Below, piece by piece: positions 26,512-49,734 of a stretch of 49,734 bases of DNA. The stretch comes from a virus: the IMG/VR virus record IMGVR_UViG_3300020472_000041, positions 1 to 49,734 of that record; one strand, 5' to 3'. Within the stretch, counting starts at the first letter, position 1. The number at the start of each line of letters is the position of its first letter. A model generated the notes under the pieces. It searched no databases. It saw only the letters and a program-made list of their open reading frames with translations, and was not told the DNA's origin. The position numbers and the translations under genes are program-made.

Positions 26512-26768
26512 TGGAGGGATTCTTGGATAGAGAATTTACTCCAGCACCTTTCATGGAGAATGCCGCTTGTAAAAATGCAGACCCTGATGTCTTTTTTGTC
26601 AATAAAGGAGATACAGGGCTTGCGGCTAAAAAACTTTGCGAATCTTGTCCTGTAAAACAAGTATGTTTGGATTTTGCTATTCAAACCCATGAACGGTTTG
26701 GAATTTGGGGTGGAATGAATTTCGCTGAACGAACCAGAGAAGCAAGAAGAAGAAGAAAGGCAATCTGA
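26511..26768 (+). CDS. WhiB-like transcription factor 1
   Basis: An 85-residue protein with the WhiB set C20, C43, C46, C52 (AACKNADPDVFF ... CESCPVKQVCLDFAI), the turn GIWGGM and a basic C-terminus (ERTREARRRRKAI). WhiB proteins bind a [4Fe-4S] cluster and act with the principal sigma factor on promoters; phage copies can displace host WhiB2-type proteins and block division. Starting at the TTG a few codons on (RBS GGAGGG) is possible. It is coupled to the next WhiB gene. This family is specific to Actinobacteria and their phages. Confidence 0.9.
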   Translation: MEGFLDREFTPAPFMENAACKNADPDVFFVNKGDTGLAAKKLCESCPVKQVCLDFAIQTHERFGIWGGMNFAERTREARRRRKAI

Positions 26769-26995
26769 TGCAAAGTTGGTTTAAAAATGCAGCCTGCAAA
26801 GACATGGATTCAAATCTTTTCTTTTCACAAAGAGGAGAATCAACTGACCCTGCAAAACTTGTTTGCCAAAGATGTCCCGTAAAGGAACCCTGCTTAGATT
26901 ATGCACTTGCTAACAATGAGACAATCGGTGTTTGGGGTGGAATGTCTCGTAAACAAAGAAGAATTGAAGCTCGGAGAAGAAAGCAAGCTGTATGA
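26768..26995 (+). CDS. WhiB-like transcription factor 2
   Basis: A 75-residue protein overlapping the previous TGA. Cluster ligands C10, C33, C36, C42 (AACKDMDSNLFF ... CQRCPVKEPCLDYAL), GVWGGM and a basic tail (RKQRRIEARRRKQAV). It is a tandem paralogue of WhiB 1 with the same spacing C-x22-C-x2-C-x5-C. Both are probably made early from control region B. The nuclease gene that follows overlaps its stop. Confidence 0.9.
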   Translation: MQSWFKNAACKDMDSNLFFSQRGESTDPAKLVCQRCPVKEPCLDYALANNETIGVWGGMSRKQRRIEARRRKQAV

Positions 26996-32800: not shown

Positions 32801-33025
32801 GTTTTCTGAATCCTGTTTGTAAGCTCTGCGTTTTGATTCAGTTAATCCTCCCCAAATACCGTGAGCAATATTTTCTTTTATTGCATAATCTAAACACCGT
32901 TGCTGTATCGGGCATTGTTTACAAATAAAAACTGCAATTTCAAATTTTCCACCTTGTTCAGGGAACCACCATTTTGTAGGAAAATCTCTACATAAGGCAG
33001 TATCTTGCCAAGCGAAAAGTCCCAT
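32780..33025 (-). CDS. WhiB-like transcription factor 3
   Basis: An 81-residue protein with C12, C35, C38, C44 (TALCRDFPTKWWFPEQGG ... CKQCPIQQRCLDYAI), GIWGGL and a basic/polar end. Spacing C-x22-C-x2-C-x5-C is that of WhiB. The start ATGGG follows the upstream WhiB stop directly. Its last codons run into the terminator stem. The sequence differs strongly from WhiB 1 and 2, so it is not a recent duplicate. Confidence 0.88.
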   Translation of the reverse strand: MGLFAWQDTALCRDFPTKWWFPEQGGKFEIAVFICKQCPIQQRCLDYAIKENIAHGIWGGLTESKRRAYKQDSENKKGSEC

Positions 33026-33412
33026 TCATTTAGCAGATCGCATATTGGGAGAAAGATGTTGCACAGTTCCTCTTTTTTTACTGTCAGCAGAATCTTTGTA
33101 TTCATTCCATGAATCGGATCTAATCTTTACTCTCCCTTTCATGGTTGTTCCTCCCCAAATTCCGTAGCGTTCCATTACTGTTACAGAGTAATCGAGACAT
33201 TCATTTTGCACGCTACAGTTATCGCAAATTTTTTTAGTTTCTCTAGTCTGATATGAGGAACCTGTAGGTTCCGGAAAGAAAAGGTTAGTATCCATTCCTT
33301 TGCAGGCGGCTTTCTCTCTCCAAGAATGATTCAGAGTTTTGCCTTCAAAAGTAGGATGGCTTCTTCCTGATCTGAATTCTATAAGCCAATGTCGGCGTTT
33401 TTCTTTTCCCAT
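33026..33412 (-). CDS. WhiB-like transcription factor 4, with terminal extensions
   Basis: A 128-residue protein with a WhiB core at C37, C63, C66, C72 (AACKGMDTNLFFPEPTG ... CDNCSVQNECLDYSV) and GIWGGT. The first Cys-Cys gap is 25 residues, not 22. It has a basic N-terminal extension of about 30 residues (MGKEKRRHWLIEFRSGRSH) and a ~45-residue C-terminal extension. Expressed leftward from control region C, ahead of WhiB 3. The extensions may add DNA or partner binding. Confidence 0.88.
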   Translation of the reverse strand: MGKEKRRHWLIEFRSGRSHPTFEGKTLNHSWREKAACKGMDTNLFFPEPTGSSYQTRETKKICDNCSVQNECLDYSVTVMERYGIWGGTTMKGRVKIRSDSWNEYKDSADSKKRGTVQHLSPNMRSAK

Positions 33413-42393: not shown

Positions 42394-45105
42394 ATGGCTG
42401 GCAAAATTAATGTTGGTCGGTCAAAAAAGATTAACCATATTCCCCTTTCTTGGGATGTAAACAAAGCAAAATCTAATCATCAACCAAAATTTCGACCTGT
42501 TGGTGATGCAGTACTTCGAGGCAGAGAAAAATCTGTAGGCAAAATAATGGAACAAATGTTCGCCGCTATGCCTCCTGTTGAACTTTGGGTAGATGGCAAA
42601 TTAAATCCTGAACAATATTTGCAAAGAGCTAAAGAAATATCACAACCTTATATGCAACAAATAGCGGCTTTGTTGCAAGTGTCTTTTAACGAAGGCGCAA
42701 TTACTCAACAGGATAGGATACGCGCTGAAGCTAACAGACAGTTAAAACGCTTACGAAGTCCTTTACGTTTAACTGATGAAGATGGAAAAGTAACTAAAGC
42801 ATCAGTCGGTGGGATAGATGTAGGCAAAGATCCGAAAGCAGTTTGGGCGCCTGTAGGACTAGAATCATTCGACGAAGTTAGTTCAGCTTCAGTTCAATAC
42901 GCACAGTTTCGTTCAGCGACTCTTGTTACAGCAATGATAGAGGAACAACAAAAAGTCATTCAGGAACTTATAGGCGAATCTTTTACAACTGCACAAACTT
43001 TTTCTACTGGAAGATCAGTAATGGGTTTAACAGCAGGTCAAACATCAAGCGCTTTATTTAATGTGCTAGAAGAAATGAACCCGAACACTCCTTTAGGTAG
43101 ACAACTCGCTCAAATGCGAGGAGTCAATTCGGCAGGTTTAACTCACCCTTGGGAAAGAGCCGTTTTTCGCCGTTCAGAAAAAATAGCTCAACAGTTAGCT
43201 GATAAGGGAGTTACAGGCGCTAGAGCATACAACAAAATAAGAGACGATTCTAATAAGTACGCTAAAAAGCTTCGCCGTTCAAGAGCAAGAATGATTTCTC
43301 GCACTGAGATTAAACGAGCACAGGTTGCAGGTCAATTAGATTCAATGCGTGAAGCTTTAGATTCAGGTTTGGCTGATCCTGTAACATCAGGTAAGAAATG
43401 GATCACAGGTGTTACAGATGTATGCCCTGTGTGTGTAAGTCTTGGGTTTGGTAGAGCTATTCCTGTTAATCAATCTTTTCCAGATGTAGGTGATGGACCT
43501 CCTGCTCATCCTAATTGTCGTTGTGATGTAGATTTTTCTCATCGAATTAACGAAGCGCCTCAAGCTATAGGTGCAGGTAATCCTAAGTTTCCTGCTGGGA
43601 CTCCTGAGAACCCGATTGTTTGGCAATTCAATTCTGGTTTTCAATCTGCACCTAATGTGACTACTGCTTTCAGACCGCCTTCGGTTCCGAGAACGCCAAC
43701 ACCAACACCAACACCTACTGCAACTGCTACACCAGTGCAACCTAATGTTGTGCCTTCTCCAAAAACTCCAAATGTTGATGAAGTTATAGAGGAAATAGAT
43801 GCTGTTCCTGTGCAACCTAAACCCACTCCTACTGAAACAGGTAAAACATGGAAAGATGATGGTTTTTACGAAATCAATGCAACAGTAAATTATTCAGCAG
43901 GTACTTTAGGCAAAGTTATTGAAGATGCTATAGAAAAAATTGCATCAATTTTTGGTACACCTATACAAGTAACAAATTTACGAACACATATTAAAACTGC
44001 ATCTCTTAAGGCTAAAAGCGGATCAGGAGCAGATTTTAGAGTTGCAGGTGATTTCAGTCCTGCAGAAACTGTTGTGTTACCGAAATTTCCTAAAAAACCT
44101 AAGAAACTACGAGATGCTATTGATTCACGGCGTGGCGGGTATGCAAATAACCAACAATGGGATCAACGACAATGGGCTTCTGCAACAATAGATGATTTAG
44201 CTGATGGTGCTAAGAGTGCAGATGATGTTTTAGAAGAATTAGCTGAAGAAGGAAAATTTCCTTTTGCTAATTGGAAAGAAGCAGGTTACAAATCTGAAGA
44301 TGAATTTAAGGAAGCCGCTTTAAAATACGAACAGTCTCTTATTAAATACAAAGATGACACAAACGCGATTCTTAGTGGTGGCGCAGATCCAGCCGCTGAT
44401 GGAGGTTCTTTTGCAGATTGGGTTGATGATCGAACACCGCAAAGAAGAAGGGTTCGTGTATCAGAAATTAGCGATTACAAAAAAGGCACACCTGAATACG
44501 ATGCAGAAATGAAACAAATCTTTTATCACGAAAACGGACATAATATTGATTATTTGCATTTAACTAAAAACCAACCCACACCAAATAATGCCGGAAACAT
44601 GGGAAGGTTTTTACTTGATCCTCCTAGAAAAGGCGCTTTACCTGTAAACGGTATGGGTATGCAATCAAGAGCTAGAGCAATAACAGAGTTAACGGAATTA
44701 AGAATAAAGAAATTTAATATGACTTTAGAAGAAGCAATCATAAGTTTAGAGGATGAAGCTGATATTGCTTTAATGAGATTATTTGAAGCATTAGAAAATG
44801 CTGAGGCTACTATACGCATAAATCAATTTAAAGTAAGCTCTTTAGCTAAAGCAAAAACAAGTGCCGATATCACTCAAGTAGAAAAAAGATTTAAATATTT
44901 GTTAGATCCTAGTGAACGTATAGCAAGAATATTTGAGCAATACATTCCAACCAGAGTAGGCTCATTAACAGAAAGAAAAATGCTAGCTAAAAGGATTACT
45001 GGGACTGATGGGATTACAGGTGAATTGTTTTCTGTCGGAGAATTTGAAGAAGTGATTGTCCCTGCTTTTGAAAATTGGCTTCGAGCAACAGGGATGATTG
45101 AATAA
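42394..45105 (+). CDS. MuF head protein fused to a zincin-like metallopeptidase domain
   Basis: A 903-residue protein starting at the base after the portal stop. Residues ~1-395 are the MuF head-morphogenesis domain: zinc-type motif C344-P-V-C347 and H372-P-N-C-R-C377. Residues ~430-455 are a Pro/Thr linker (PTPTPTPTATATP). Residues ~710-850 contain H712-E-N-G-H716-N-I-D-Y-L-H722 (HExxH extended with D and a third H) and PSERIARIFEQY with E841 as a possible third ligand, a pattern like the lethal-factor/polyvalent-protein zincins. MuF fused to enzymatic C-termini is an established phage toxin design. It would be packed in the head and may be delivered with DNA. Confidence 0.75.
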   Translation: MAGKINVGRSKKINHIPLSWDVNKAKSNHQPKFRPVGDAVLRGREKSVGKIMEQMFAAMPPVELWVDGKLNPEQYLQRAKEISQPYMQQIAALLQVSFNEGAITQQDRIRAEANRQLKRLRSPLRLTDEDGKVTKASVGGIDVGKDPKAVWAPVGLESFDEVSSASVQYAQFRSATLVTAMIEEQQKVIQELIGESFTTAQTFSTGRSVMGLTAGQTSSALFNVLEEMNPNTPLGRQLAQMRGVNSAGLTHPWERAVFRRSEKIAQQLADKGVTGARAYNKIRDDSNKYAKKLRRSRARMISRTEIKRAQVAGQLDSMREALDSGLADPVTSGKKWITGVTDVCPVCVSLGFGRAIPVNQSFPDVGDGPPAHPNCRCDVDFSHRINEAPQAIGAGNPKFPAGTPENPIVWQFNSGFQSAPNVTTAFRPPSVPRTPTPTPTPTATATPVQPNVVPSPKTPNVDEVIEEIDAVPVQPKPTPTETGKTWKDDGFYEINATVNYSAGTLGKVIEDAIEKIASIFGTPIQVTNLRTHIKTASLKAKSGSGADFRVAGDFSPAETVVLPKFPKKPKKLRDAIDSRRGGYANNQQWDQRQWASATIDDLADGAKSADDVLEELAEEGKFPFANWKEAGYKSEDEFKEAALKYEQSLIKYKDDTNAILSGGADPAADGGSFADWVDDRTPQRRRVRVSEISDYKKGTPEYDAEMKQIFYHENGHNIDYLHLTKNQPTPNNAGNMGRFLLDPPRKGALPVNGMGMQSRARAITELTELRIKKFNMTLEEAIISLEDEADIALMRLFEALENAEATIRINQFKVSSLAKAKTSADITQVEKRFKYLLDPSERIARIFEQYIPTRVGSLTERKMLAKRITGTDGITGELFSVGEFEEVIVPAFENWLRATGMIE

Positions 45106-46605: not shown

Positions 46606-46868
46606 AAAAGTTATAACACCGACCGATTTCTTCGTTTCCTACCATCTCACGTTAAGTTCTAGGTAGTTCCCTACTCTTTTCTCAGTCCATTGCCATTTAA
46701 CTTTTCAGATTTTGTTTCCTCTATCTTATTATTAAATGGTTTGTGCTATAACTCAATTACTAATCTACATTAAACCAAATCACACCTTGTATTAGCTTTA
46801 GAAAAAAATACTAATCTGCTAAGATGTTTGCCAGTGACCAGAGTGTCCTCAGAAATTAGGAGGGCATC
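46606..46868 (+). promoter_or_regulatory. Intergenic gap with promoter for the inserted module
   Basis: No ORF or clear terminator in this 263-base gap; it is pyrimidine-rich at 46625-46735. TTTAGA (46797-46802), 17 bases, TAAGAT (46820-46825) is a reasonable sigma-70 promoter. RBS AGGAGGG stands at 46858-46864 before the TTG start. AAGATG/CATCTT could form a weak leader stem. The gap interrupts the otherwise tight head operon. Confidence 0.6.
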
Positions 46869-47297
46869 TTGGATGACCAGCAATTAACTGAAGCTTTAGA
46901 CCATATACAGGAACGTCTGCAATTAAGTGTTGATGCGACTATCAGTAAAACTCAAGGTATAAAAGCTAAAGTTGAAAAATCACAAAGTTTAATTGAAACA
47001 ATTAAGGACAATATTGCTTATGTGGTTGGGTTGCCTGCAACTCTTGGCGGCACTTTCGGGTTTCTGTGGGACTCATCTGGAGATGAAGCGGCATTAACTC
47101 ATAAGGTGACAATGTTGGAGGAAGCGGTAGCAGGACTTAAAGCAGAAAATGATCTGCTAGGTGGCGGAACCAAAAATTTCGCTATTGACATGAGCGCAGT
47201 TCCTAGCGGTTCCATAACTGTTATAATTGTCGCCTCGATATTAGTTATAAGTATTGGGTTGCTTGCCATGTATCAAAGACGACGTAAACGACGTTGA
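46869..47297 (+). CDS. C-terminally anchored membrane protein
   Basis: A 142-residue protein from TTG 46869, chosen for the adjacent RBS AGGAGGG. Residues ~1-90 are helical (LTEALDHIQERLQLSVDATISKTQGIKAKVEKSQSLIETI), with a short Gly/Ala hydrophobic patch (VGLPATLGGTFGFLW). Residues ~118-136 are a clear membrane span (SITVIIVASILVISIGLLAMY) and the tail is RRRKRR, so the bulk lies outside the cytoplasm. It is coupled to the lipoprotein gene (TTGA overlap). A host-envelope-modifying role, such as superinfection exclusion, is possible. Confidence 0.6.
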   Translation: MDDQQLTEALDHIQERLQLSVDATISKTQGIKAKVEKSQSLIETIKDNIAYVVGLPATLGGTFGFLWDSSGDEAALTHKVTMLEEAVAGLKAENDLLGGGTKNFAIDMSAVPSGSITVIIVASILVISIGLLAMYQRRRKRR

Positions 47298-49734
47298 TAA
47301 AAAGAGTAGTCGCTGTTCTTTCAACAGCATTACTCATTGCCTCTTGCGCTCAAGGTAAAACAACTAAAACAACTGAAATAGCACCAATACCTACTGTAAC
47401 TGTTGCAGAAACTATTCCTGAAATTACAGAAACAACACTTGCACCTGTTAAAAAAGATATTTCAGCTTCTTTAGAGTATCAACCTGTAAATGATGGCTTT
47501 TCTTTTGAGAATTTTGGTGGTGGAGAAGCACCCGCAGGTTTAACAGTTAATATGACTCGCAGGTTTTACGGCGATGATCAAGTTTGTTCTGATGTAACAG
47601 ATAACGAATGTACTCCTTATCCAGTAATTCTTCAGTTAATAGCTCAAGCCAATCGCTCAATGAAAGGCGGTTTGTGTGAGGGATTAACAGTTTTATCTTT
47701 ACGTTTAGCTAATGACCCGCTTACTTTATCTGCTTTTCAAAACGCTGAAGAAGTAGCCGCATTAATCAAAGAAGATCCTGCTTTACTATCAGAGATTGCT
47801 TACTGGTATGCCACACAATTTGCTATCGAAGTTCAACAACAAGCAGCACAGTTCTTAGAACTTTCTCCTTTAGCTTTAGCTCGAATACTTTATGAAGATT
47901 TTGCTAAAGCAGAAGCAGGTGAACCTTCAGTTGGTTACACGATAGGCATTTACTCTGAGCAGGGTGGTCATGCTGTAACACCTTACAAAGTAACTACAGA
48001 CGGAGATACTTGGCGAATTTACATTTACGATTCCAATTGGGCTACGACAGAACGATGGATTGATGTAGATGAAAATGGTTGGAATTATGCTTTAGCCGCT
48101 ACCAACCCGACTGAACCAACAGAAGCTTGGGGTGGGGGAACTGGGACAATGGAATTAACTCCAATGACTTCCCGTTCGGGGCCTTTCACTTGCAGTTTCT
48201 GTCCTCAAGAAGAAAGTCAAGAATCAGGCACATTGTTAACTGTTGCCGCTTCAGGCAGTAAACAGATGTCTATTCAAATTGTAACTGAATCAGGTGAGCG
48301 TCTGGGTTATTACGACGGCAAATTTGTCAATGAAATAGAAGGTGCTACTTATCGTTATTTAATATCAGGAGTTTCAACCGCTGATCCAGTAATGGTTTTT
48401 TTACCACCTGATGTAGAGGATTTCAGTGCAGATGTAGATGTTATAGACATTCCCACCCCAGAGGATACATCGCCAATAACGCCTACGGAGGGGGTAGTCG
48501 AAGATTCACCTCCAGAGCAGGAACCCCAACAAGATACCACACAACAATTTTCACTTCTCATATTGGATGATGAGAAATCAGTTCAAATTGAAGCAGACAT
48601 TGTAATAGATGAACCTGAAATAGAAGAAGAAATAGTAACAGAATCTTTAATACATTTTTCTGAAGAAGTTGTTGAAATAGCGGACATCGAAGAAGCTATT
48701 GTAGCTATAGCTATTGATGCTTTAGAAGTAGAAATAGAAGTTGAACAAGGACAGCAAGTAGCAGTTCAATTCGTTCCTGAACCGCCGCCTGTAATAGAAG
48801 CAGGACAATCTGCACCTGCAATAGAAGCTCCAACAGTGTTAGATATTTCTATAGCAGACAACACGGGCGAACTTTTAGCTGAAGTCGAAGTTGACTTAAC
48901 TCCGTTTCGAGTTGAAGACAGACAAGAAGAAATAGAACTAGAAGAAGAACCTGAACAGGTTCCCGTAATGCTTGCGATTTCGTTTGATGAGGATATCGGA
49001 GAAGTAGAACAAGTAGAGGAGTCTATCGAAGCTTGGGTAGCTTCAGACGCCGAATACTTCCAAGCAATTATAGAAGATCGTGTCGAAGAAGTATTAGGTG
49101 AAACGTGGCTTGAAGAATTAGAAGAAACACAAGAATGGGAAATAGAAGAAGAATTTGAGGAGTTTGATTTAACAGAGATTCTCTTAGCAGTAGAAGAAGA
49201 TTACTGGGAAGACGAAATCTGGGAAGAAATTGATTATGACGAAGAATGGTTTGAAGAAGAAGCCGAGTTAGAAACCTTTGTCATTTATGAAGAAGAAGAA
49301 TGGTGGGATGAAGAACCACAAGAATGGATGGAAGAAGATGAATGGTTTGAAGAATTTATTTTGGAAGAAGAATGGATCGAAGAAGAATGGTTTGATCCTG
49401 AACAATTATTTGAAGAATTTGAGGAGGAAGAAATTGAAGAAATTATTGAAGAAATTATTGACGAAGTTTGGTTTGAAGAAGAAAACACAGACGAAGAATG
49501 GGAGGAGTTGGAAGAACCCGAAGGGCTTTGGGAACAACTTGAGGAATTAGAACAAGAATTTATTGAAGACGAGTTTTGGCTTGAAGAAGAAATCATACCA
49601 ACTACCACATGGATGGAAGATTGGGACTATGACGAGTTCGGTGAAATACCATTAGAAATGCTTGAATGGTCAGACGATGAGTTTGATTTATTTGAGGAGT
49701 TTTTAGACAACACAACAGAAGAAGAAGAATTAGA
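47294..49734 (+). CDS. Large acidic lipoprotein with papain-like N-domain (3' end open)
   Basis: Starts at TTG 47294 overlapping the upstream TGA; open to the window end (813 codons). Residues 1-18 are a lipoprotein signal (IKRVVAVLSTALLIASC, acylated C18). A Thr/Pro linker follows. Residues ~115-265 resemble a papain-like cysteine peptidase: C128 in GGLCEGLTVLS, H226 in GGHAVTPYKV, D246 in YIYDSNW. From ~355 onward it is extremely acidic. From ~590 it is mostly Glu/Trp/Phe/Ile repeats (EEEWIEEEWFD). In a circular genome it continues into the frame at base 2, ending in the scaffold-like domain. An exported lipoprotein here is unexpected for a scaffold; an inserted moron gene is the alternative. 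Confidence 0.65.
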   Translation, partial: MIKRVVAVLSTALLIASCAQGKTTKTTEIAPIPTVTVAETIPEITETTLAPVKKDISASLEYQPVNDGFSFENFGGGEAPAGLTVNMTRRFYGDDQVCSDVTDNECTPYPVILQLIAQANRSMKGGLCEGLTVLSLRLANDPLTLSAFQNAEEVAALIKEDPALLSEIAYWYATQFAIEVQQQAAQFLELSPLALARILYEDFAKAEAGEPSVGYTIGIYSEQGGHAVTPYKVTTDGDTWRIYIYDSNWATTERWIDVDENGWNYALAATNPTEPTEAWGGGTGTMELTPMTSRSGPFTCSFCPQEESQESGTLLTVAASGSKQMSIQIVTESGERLGYYDGKFVNEIEGATYRYLISGVSTADPVMVFLPPDVEDFSADVDVIDIPTPEDTSPITPTEGVVEDSPPEQEPQQDTTQQFSLLILDDEKSVQIEADIVIDEPEIEEEIVTESLIHFSEEVVEIADIEEAIVAIAIDALEVEIEVEQGQQVAVQFVPEPPPVIEAGQSAPAIEAPTVLDISIADNTGELLAEVEVDLTPFRVEDRQEEIELEEEPEQVPVMLAISFDEDIGEVEQVEESIEAWVASDAEYFQAIIEDRVEEVLGETWLEELEETQEWEIEEEFEEFDLTEILLAVEEDYWEDEIWEEIDYDEEWFEEEAELETFVIYEEEEWWDEEPQEWMEEDEWFEEFILEEEWIEEEWFDPEQLFEEFEEEEIEEIIEEIIDEVWFEEENTDEEWEELEEPEGLWEQLEELEQEFIEDEFWLEEEIIPTTTWMEDWDYDEFGEIPLEMLEWSDDEFDLFEEFLDNTTEEEEL

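Follow-up and report, generated by a model that had tools for sequence, protein, structure and literature searches.

An obligate gene pair encoding a giant lipoprotein with a predicted papain-like domain and a membrane partner in phages of Actinobacteria

What could a giant, glutamate-rich lipoprotein do for a phage, and is the frame that would encode it a gene at all? The window that we analyzed, an IMG/VR virus record of 49,734 bp taken whole, ends in a reading frame on the + strand that begins with TTG at position 47294 and continues for 813 codons without a stop (47294 to 49732) until it runs off the contig end at 49734. The TTG overlaps by 4 nt (TTGA) the stop codon of the partner gene upstream. 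Overlaps of this kind between the two genes (ATGA, GTGA, or TTGA) recur in 40 of 72 loci, a spacing of +4 being found in 29, and this recurrence supports TTG as the start; translation of the lipoprotein gene appears to be coupled to that of its partner through the overlap. ATG-only gene calling would be expected to place the start at M87 (47552) and to lose the lipobox, while callers that permit TTG should recover the gene. A preliminary description of this DNA had proposed the long TTG frame and had named frameshifts or stops in independent assemblies as what would speak against it. The frame is open in independent contigs, and its Ka/Ks ratio against the nearest relative, L002, is 0.128 overall, 0.059 for residues 59 to 390, 0.053 for a conserved acidic block, and 0.197 for a variable stalk. 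Selection on the N-terminal domain is strongly purifying, and we regard 47294 to 49734 as a confirmed gene. On the complementary strand, an antisense ORF of 107 amino acids composed mainly of Ser, Asn, and His (49285 to 49608, −) is an artifact of the GAA-rich sense strand.

The length of at least 813 codons given in the preliminary description holds as stated, but the truncation of the gene by the contig end had been overlooked. L002, which is 86% identical across the query, carries a complete gene (L002:10001-13672) of 1,223 amino acids, and full-length relatives range from ~990 to 1,730 amino acids. Since the window lacks ~4.4 kb that L002 has between the lipoprotein and capsid genes, the 3′ end of the window's gene must be missing. 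That interval in L002 encodes a ferredoxin, a metallophosphoesterase-like protein, a staphylococcal-nuclease homologue, and a scaffold-like protein; the Fer4_15 single-cluster ferredoxin (L002:13627-13920) and the nuclease homologue (L002:15447-15947) often lie downstream of the lipoprotein gene, in many loci. Circular joining of the contig ends, by which the ORF would continue in frame into an ORF at 2 to 424, was rejected as spurious given the ~4.4 kb present in L002. Both ends of the window (49734 and 1) belong to one neighborhood, and the in-frame continuation across them is a coincidence. The contig therefore appears to represent almost all of a permuted genome of ~54 kb.

Relatives of the lipoprotein, confirmed by tblastn, numbered 10 virus contigs when a single sequence was used as the query and 79 loci when a profile was used, and many of the carriers are uncultured, mostly marine viruses. 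Genes for WhiB occur in 16 of 24 cassette-bearing records, including four copies in the window (26556 to 26735 and 26777 to 26962, +; 32822 to 33010 and 33128 to 33322, −), while among control genomes WhiB was found in Corynebacterium only. This distribution marks the hosts as Actinobacteria, phage-encoded WhiB having been used likewise as a host marker by Mizuno et al. (PMC3861242). In the window, the genes upstream of the cassette encode TerL (39563), portal (41074), a MuF-type head protein (42394), and an XkdF-type protease (45256), and the other end of the record encodes a probable major capsid protein (831, assigned by position and relatives) and the tape measure (8263). The MuF-type protein (42394 to 45105; L002:4694-8125) has a long C-terminal extension with an HExxH-like motif (FYHENGHNID), and its L002 counterpart contains an extra inserted segment of ~240 amino acids, which suggests variable, effector-like tails. 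Elsewhere the cassette adjoins tail-fiber genes (40 of 84 loci), often following them, or divergent WhiB genes (L003 to L008), while in L002, as in the window, it sits in the head operon.

Relatives of the window's major capsid protein were found in 5 of 23 cassette-bearing records and relatives of its TerL in 2 of 23, numbers to be read with the caution that many of these records are fragments in which a missing capsid or terminase gene is not proof of absence. Counts as low as these point to a module that is directed at the host and is not a part of the capsid. One record (L163) is 70% identical to the window in capsid and 63% in terminase, with a lipoprotein domain 60% identical; another (L008) has neither the capsid nor the terminase of the window's type, yet its lipoprotein domain is 72% identical. 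Such a pattern indicates that different phage backbones have exchanged the cassette. The reading that we favor, at a probability of roughly 45%, is that the phage makes an ectoenzyme of papain type, tethered to the membrane, by which the surface of the host is remodeled; superinfection exclusion or receptor inactivation is the likeliest purpose.

The gene directly upstream of the lipoprotein, also overlooked in the preliminary description, encodes a membrane protein of 142 amino acids (46869 to 47297, +), and a Shine-Dalgarno sequence, AGGAGG (46858 to 46863, +), lies 5 nt before its TTG start, at the same site as in L002. Hydropathy suggests a hydrophobic stretch at residues ~49 to 67, a heptad-like segment at ~73 to 97, and a C-terminal transmembrane (TM) helix at ~117 to 137, followed by an RRRKRR tail. 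A homologue of this partner stands directly upstream of the lipoprotein gene in all 80 loci with enough sequence. The reverse search, from the partner alone, recovered the lipoprotein in 63 of 65 loci, many of them on the same contigs as the 79 loci of the lipoprotein profile search, and the remaining two contigs stop ~170 nt past the partner. The two proteins also co-diverge (Mantel r = 0.72, 0 of 2,000 permutations). Partner and lipoprotein genes are therefore an obligate two-gene cassette. A search for promoters ahead of the partner gene returned sites no commoner than in shuffled sequence, and an Rfam scan gave no match.

The arrangement of the cassette raises the main rival explanation, an egress factor in which the two proteins would function like a two-component spanin, but in a version suited to a monoderm host, and act after holin and endolysin, with the enzyme opening an outer protein or glycan layer. 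A small membrane protein whose gene overlaps that of a lipoprotein recalls spanin pairs (PMC6139136). Among 41 partners, 14 match phrog_739, annotated "Rz-like spanin" (best E value, 5e-4), and 3 match phrog_214, also Rz-like. In 26 of 84 loci an endolysin or r1t-type holin gene is no more than 6 ORFs away, for example in L103 and L107, where the order is endolysin, holin, partner, lipoprotein. However, spanins act on the Gram-negative outer membrane, and WhiB indicates Actinobacteria; the spanin matches are weak and of a coiled-coil/TM type, and the window's own partner returned no match to the PHROG Rz-like spanins. The partner's conserved C-terminal TM helix and basic tail are also unlike an i-spanin, and neither the window nor the loci of the L003 to L008 type have the cassette beside lysis genes. 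Weighing these points, we consider egress a rather doubtful alternative to remodeling of the host surface for exclusion.

The case for a surface location begins with the N terminus of the lipoprotein, where a hydrophobic signal peptide and lipobox extend to Cys18 (47294 to 47347, +). The lipobox, IAS-C18, had been recognized in the preliminary description and is confirmed here: the pattern is present in nearly all loci, and Cys18 is invariant in alignment A1, so that the signal, lipobox, and invariant cysteine of bacterial lipoproteins are all present. The domain that follows (residues 57 to 390; 47462 to 48463, +) contains the Cys/His/Asp arrangement earlier likened to papain-like peptidases, with codons for Cys128 at 47675 to 47677, His226 at 47969 to 47971, and Asp246 at 48029 to 48031 (+). 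Loss of these three residues from every homologue would have spoken against the assignment. Instead, Cys128, His226, Asp246, and Asn248 are invariant across 81 to 82 aligned loci, as are Cys98/106 and Cys300/303, the counts being slightly inflated by contigs sampled twice (L008/L136, L011/L153, and L010/L149).

An AF2 model of residues 57 to 398 (pLDDT, 72; pTM, 0.73) orders the elements as helix(Cys)-β1-β2(His)-β3(Asp)-β4-β5, with Cys at the N terminus of the helix, His at the start of β2, and Asp at the end of β3. In this prediction the order agrees with the definition of the papain-like core, in which Cys lies at the N terminus of the core helix, His on β2, and a polar residue on β3 (PMC10318531). 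Foldseek searches of the domain against PDB and BFVD returned no match at E ≤ 0.001, a profile search of PDB returned none, and no Pfam profile matched. A link to a Pfam peptidase by way of Clostridia intermediates (L243 and L246) was rejected, Pfam naming only other domains in them. The triad is found in all close homologues, while the papain-like fold itself is a prediction, drawn from residue conservation and modeled topology and matched by no structure.

Given that the papain-like superfamily includes the NlpC/P60 and CHAP enzymes (PMC10318531), the domain might instead act on the cell wall, as a membrane-tethered peptidoglycan amidase or endopeptidase. A phage CHAP domain did come up 30th in the PDB search, but at an E value of 0.35, which is not significant, and no NlpC/P60, CHAP, or amidase family was matched in Pfam or NCBIfam. 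Endolysin-like proteins that carry a peptidoglycan-binding domain exist separately as well, and we judge a cell-wall enzyme unlikely beside the proposed ectoenzyme for remodeling of the host surface.

The rest of the window's copy is acidic. A linker with β-type hydrophobic periodicity (residues 411 to 575; 48524 to 49018, +) leads to a conserved acidic block (residues 576 to 660, EAWVASDAEYFQ..EYWEDEQW; 49019 to 49273, +), retained even in the divergent L159 and L163, and then to the beginning of a variable E/W-rich stalk (49274 to 49734, +), which differs among relatives in composition and length. Residues 576 to 813 are 39.5% Glu and 8% Trp with a net charge of −113, which bears out the Glu-rich tail described earlier, and the full L002 lipoprotein reaches −283. 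The Trp, Phe, and Ile residues had been called regularly spaced, which holds only in part, as their periodicity of ~4.5 to 5 residues is weak (z = 5.4 at 70 degrees).

Among 34 distinct complete proteins, the spacer measured from the conserved block (~residue 660) to the C-terminal part ranges from 143 to 611 residues, from −0.57 to −0.13 charges per residue, and from 49% to 9% Glu. Spacers are Pro/Thr-rich and weakly charged in the close relatives L100, L104, and L040, and Pro/Glu-rich in other relatives; the L100 and L040 contigs carry the window's capsid type. Since the acidic stretch is exchanged for Pro/Thr- or Pro/Glu-rich spacers, it behaves as a stalk, a swappable one of which the E/W-rich form is one version among several. 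With such variability, the earlier proposal of a polyanionic or metal- or cation-binding layer is not supported as the function, and we rejected it. The exchangeable stalk also illustrates how a low-complexity composition as extreme as this can be tolerable in a spacer. The idea of a DNA mimic was also set aside, because the lipobox would put the protein outside the cell.

A related explanation, that the protein is a polyanionic brush or decoy that repels or traps virions, cationic peptides, or tape-measure proteins, with the enzyme-like domain secondary, draws on the charge of L002 and on Ltp, whose negative residues are important for contact with the basic C terminus of the tape measure (PMC3952083). 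Yet charge is not conserved, as the Pro/Thr stalks illustrate, and the enzyme domain with its triad is among the most strongly conserved parts; a brush therefore seems improbable, and the charged stretch is better read as the stalk of the proposed ectoenzyme.

The stalk leads to a C-terminal stretch of ~135 to 215 amino acids that a pattern search found in all but a few complete relatives; the preliminary description had overlooked it, the window's copy ending before the C terminus. Modeled from L002 (pLDDT, 84), it is predicted to form a PPC β-sandwich, the best Foldseek match being 5sv5, the PPC domain of a Bacillus collagenase (E = 2e-4, probability 1.00), followed by the collagen-binding domains of ColG (probability 1.00). 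Reading from L002 and the complete relatives, we take the lipoprotein to end in a PPC fold.

The lipoprotein returned no match above curated cutoffs in Pfam, NCBIfam, PHROG, or PADLOC, and the phages of INPHARED gave none for the lipoprotein, the partner, or the divergent L163. The only close copy among GTDB genomes (L092) is a 3,264-bp contig with partner and lipoprotein, 75% identical, in a Phycisphaerae MAG; it is probably of phage origin and reached the bacterial MAG as viral contamination during binning. Remote cellular relatives include Lachnospiraceae proteins that keep Cys/His/Asp and Myxococcales paralogues in which Cys is replaced. The latter are three large paralogues in one MAG (L093, L094, and L251) that are related to the N-terminal domain, and the two inspected have QGRSEG at the Cys position. 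The cassette is thus absent from the annotated phage and protein-family databases searched, and its retention under strong selection in phages with differing head genes points to a common host-surface target.

Bringing these parts together, we propose that the cassette gives rise to an ectoenzyme complex at the surface of the infected actinobacterial host. The lipobox suggests that the lipoprotein would be exported and anchored by a lipid on Cys18 to the outside of the cytoplasmic membrane, with the papain-type domain close to the membrane, the stalk of variable length and composition projecting outward, and at its tip the PPC domain, of a kind that binds matrix polymers. The obligate partner may hold or activate the lipoprotein in the membrane. 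Host surface proteins, possibly including the phage receptor, would then be cleaved or otherwise modified, and the changed envelope could exclude further phages or keep progeny from readsorbing. Action on the host surface had been guessed in the preliminary description, and the analysis supports that guess as well as the phage context. We prefer exclusion or receptor inactivation because the module is host directed, is not tied to one capsid type, and often adjoins tail-fiber genes, and because phage lipoproteins with such roles are known (Ltp and Llp). However, many copies of the cassette lie in presumably late operons (tail, lysis, and head), while exclusion genes are often early or prophage expressed, and the weak Rz-spanin resemblance of the partner points to egress. 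A virion- or tail-associated structural protein, as placement in the window's head operon and near tail-fiber genes elsewhere could suggest, is very improbable given a lipobox in nearly every member and the presence of the cassette in phages without recognizable window-type head genes.

More tentatively, it is possible that a stalked, lipid-anchored papain-type protease and its dedicated partner shave actinobacterial surfaces, excluding phages or freeing progeny, and constitute a previously undescribed two-component system that is passed on whole among phages with no other relationship. We know of no earlier case in which exclusion or egress relies on a surface protease. Uncultured Actinobacteria abound in aquatic habitats, and next to nothing is known of the biology of their phages; should the enzyme be active, the cassette would offer a directly testable mechanism of exclusion or release in such hosts.

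Among known systems, the secreted Lachnospiraceae proteins (L095 to L097) have a related domain (27 to 30% identity) with Cys/His/Asp kept and then acidic Trp-containing stretches, but they are large bacterial LRR/DUF285 proteins of another architecture, in which the acidic stretches are followed by arrays of RYRM or WRCKGRLN units. With the papain-like superfamily (clan CA) the lipoprotein domain shares, in its model, Cys at a helix N terminus and His then Asp on successive strands, but it matches no family model or solved structure. Spanins (Rz/Rz1) likewise pair a membrane protein with a lipoprotein whose genes adjoin or overlap, with holin and endolysin close by as in some of the cassette loci, and match the partner weakly by profile. 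They differ in that they belong to Gram-negative hosts with an outer membrane, whereas WhiB suggests a Gram-positive host for the cassette; in that i-spanins have a single N-terminal TM helix and a periplasmic C terminus, from which the partner departs, by hydropathy, in its extra C-terminal TM helix; and in that the lipoprotein is far larger and enzyme-like. T5 Llp and T1 Cor are phage lipoproteins too, and the gene for Llp, which blocks reinfection, adjoins that of the receptor-binding protein (PMC9586334), much as the cassette often follows tail-fiber genes; they are small, however, reside in the Gram-negative outer membrane, and act by binding, without an enzyme domain. Ltp of Streptococcus thermophilus phage TP-J34, an exclusion lipoprotein, resembles the window's protein in its predicted place on the outside of a Gram-positive membrane, in having a negatively charged functional region, and in spreading as a moron (PMC3952083). 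A Pfam scan to an E value of 1 found no Ltp repeat domain in the lipoprotein, which differs from Ltp in its much larger size, enzyme-like domain, PPC cap, and obligate partner. We place it among phage-encoded host-surface lipoproteins.
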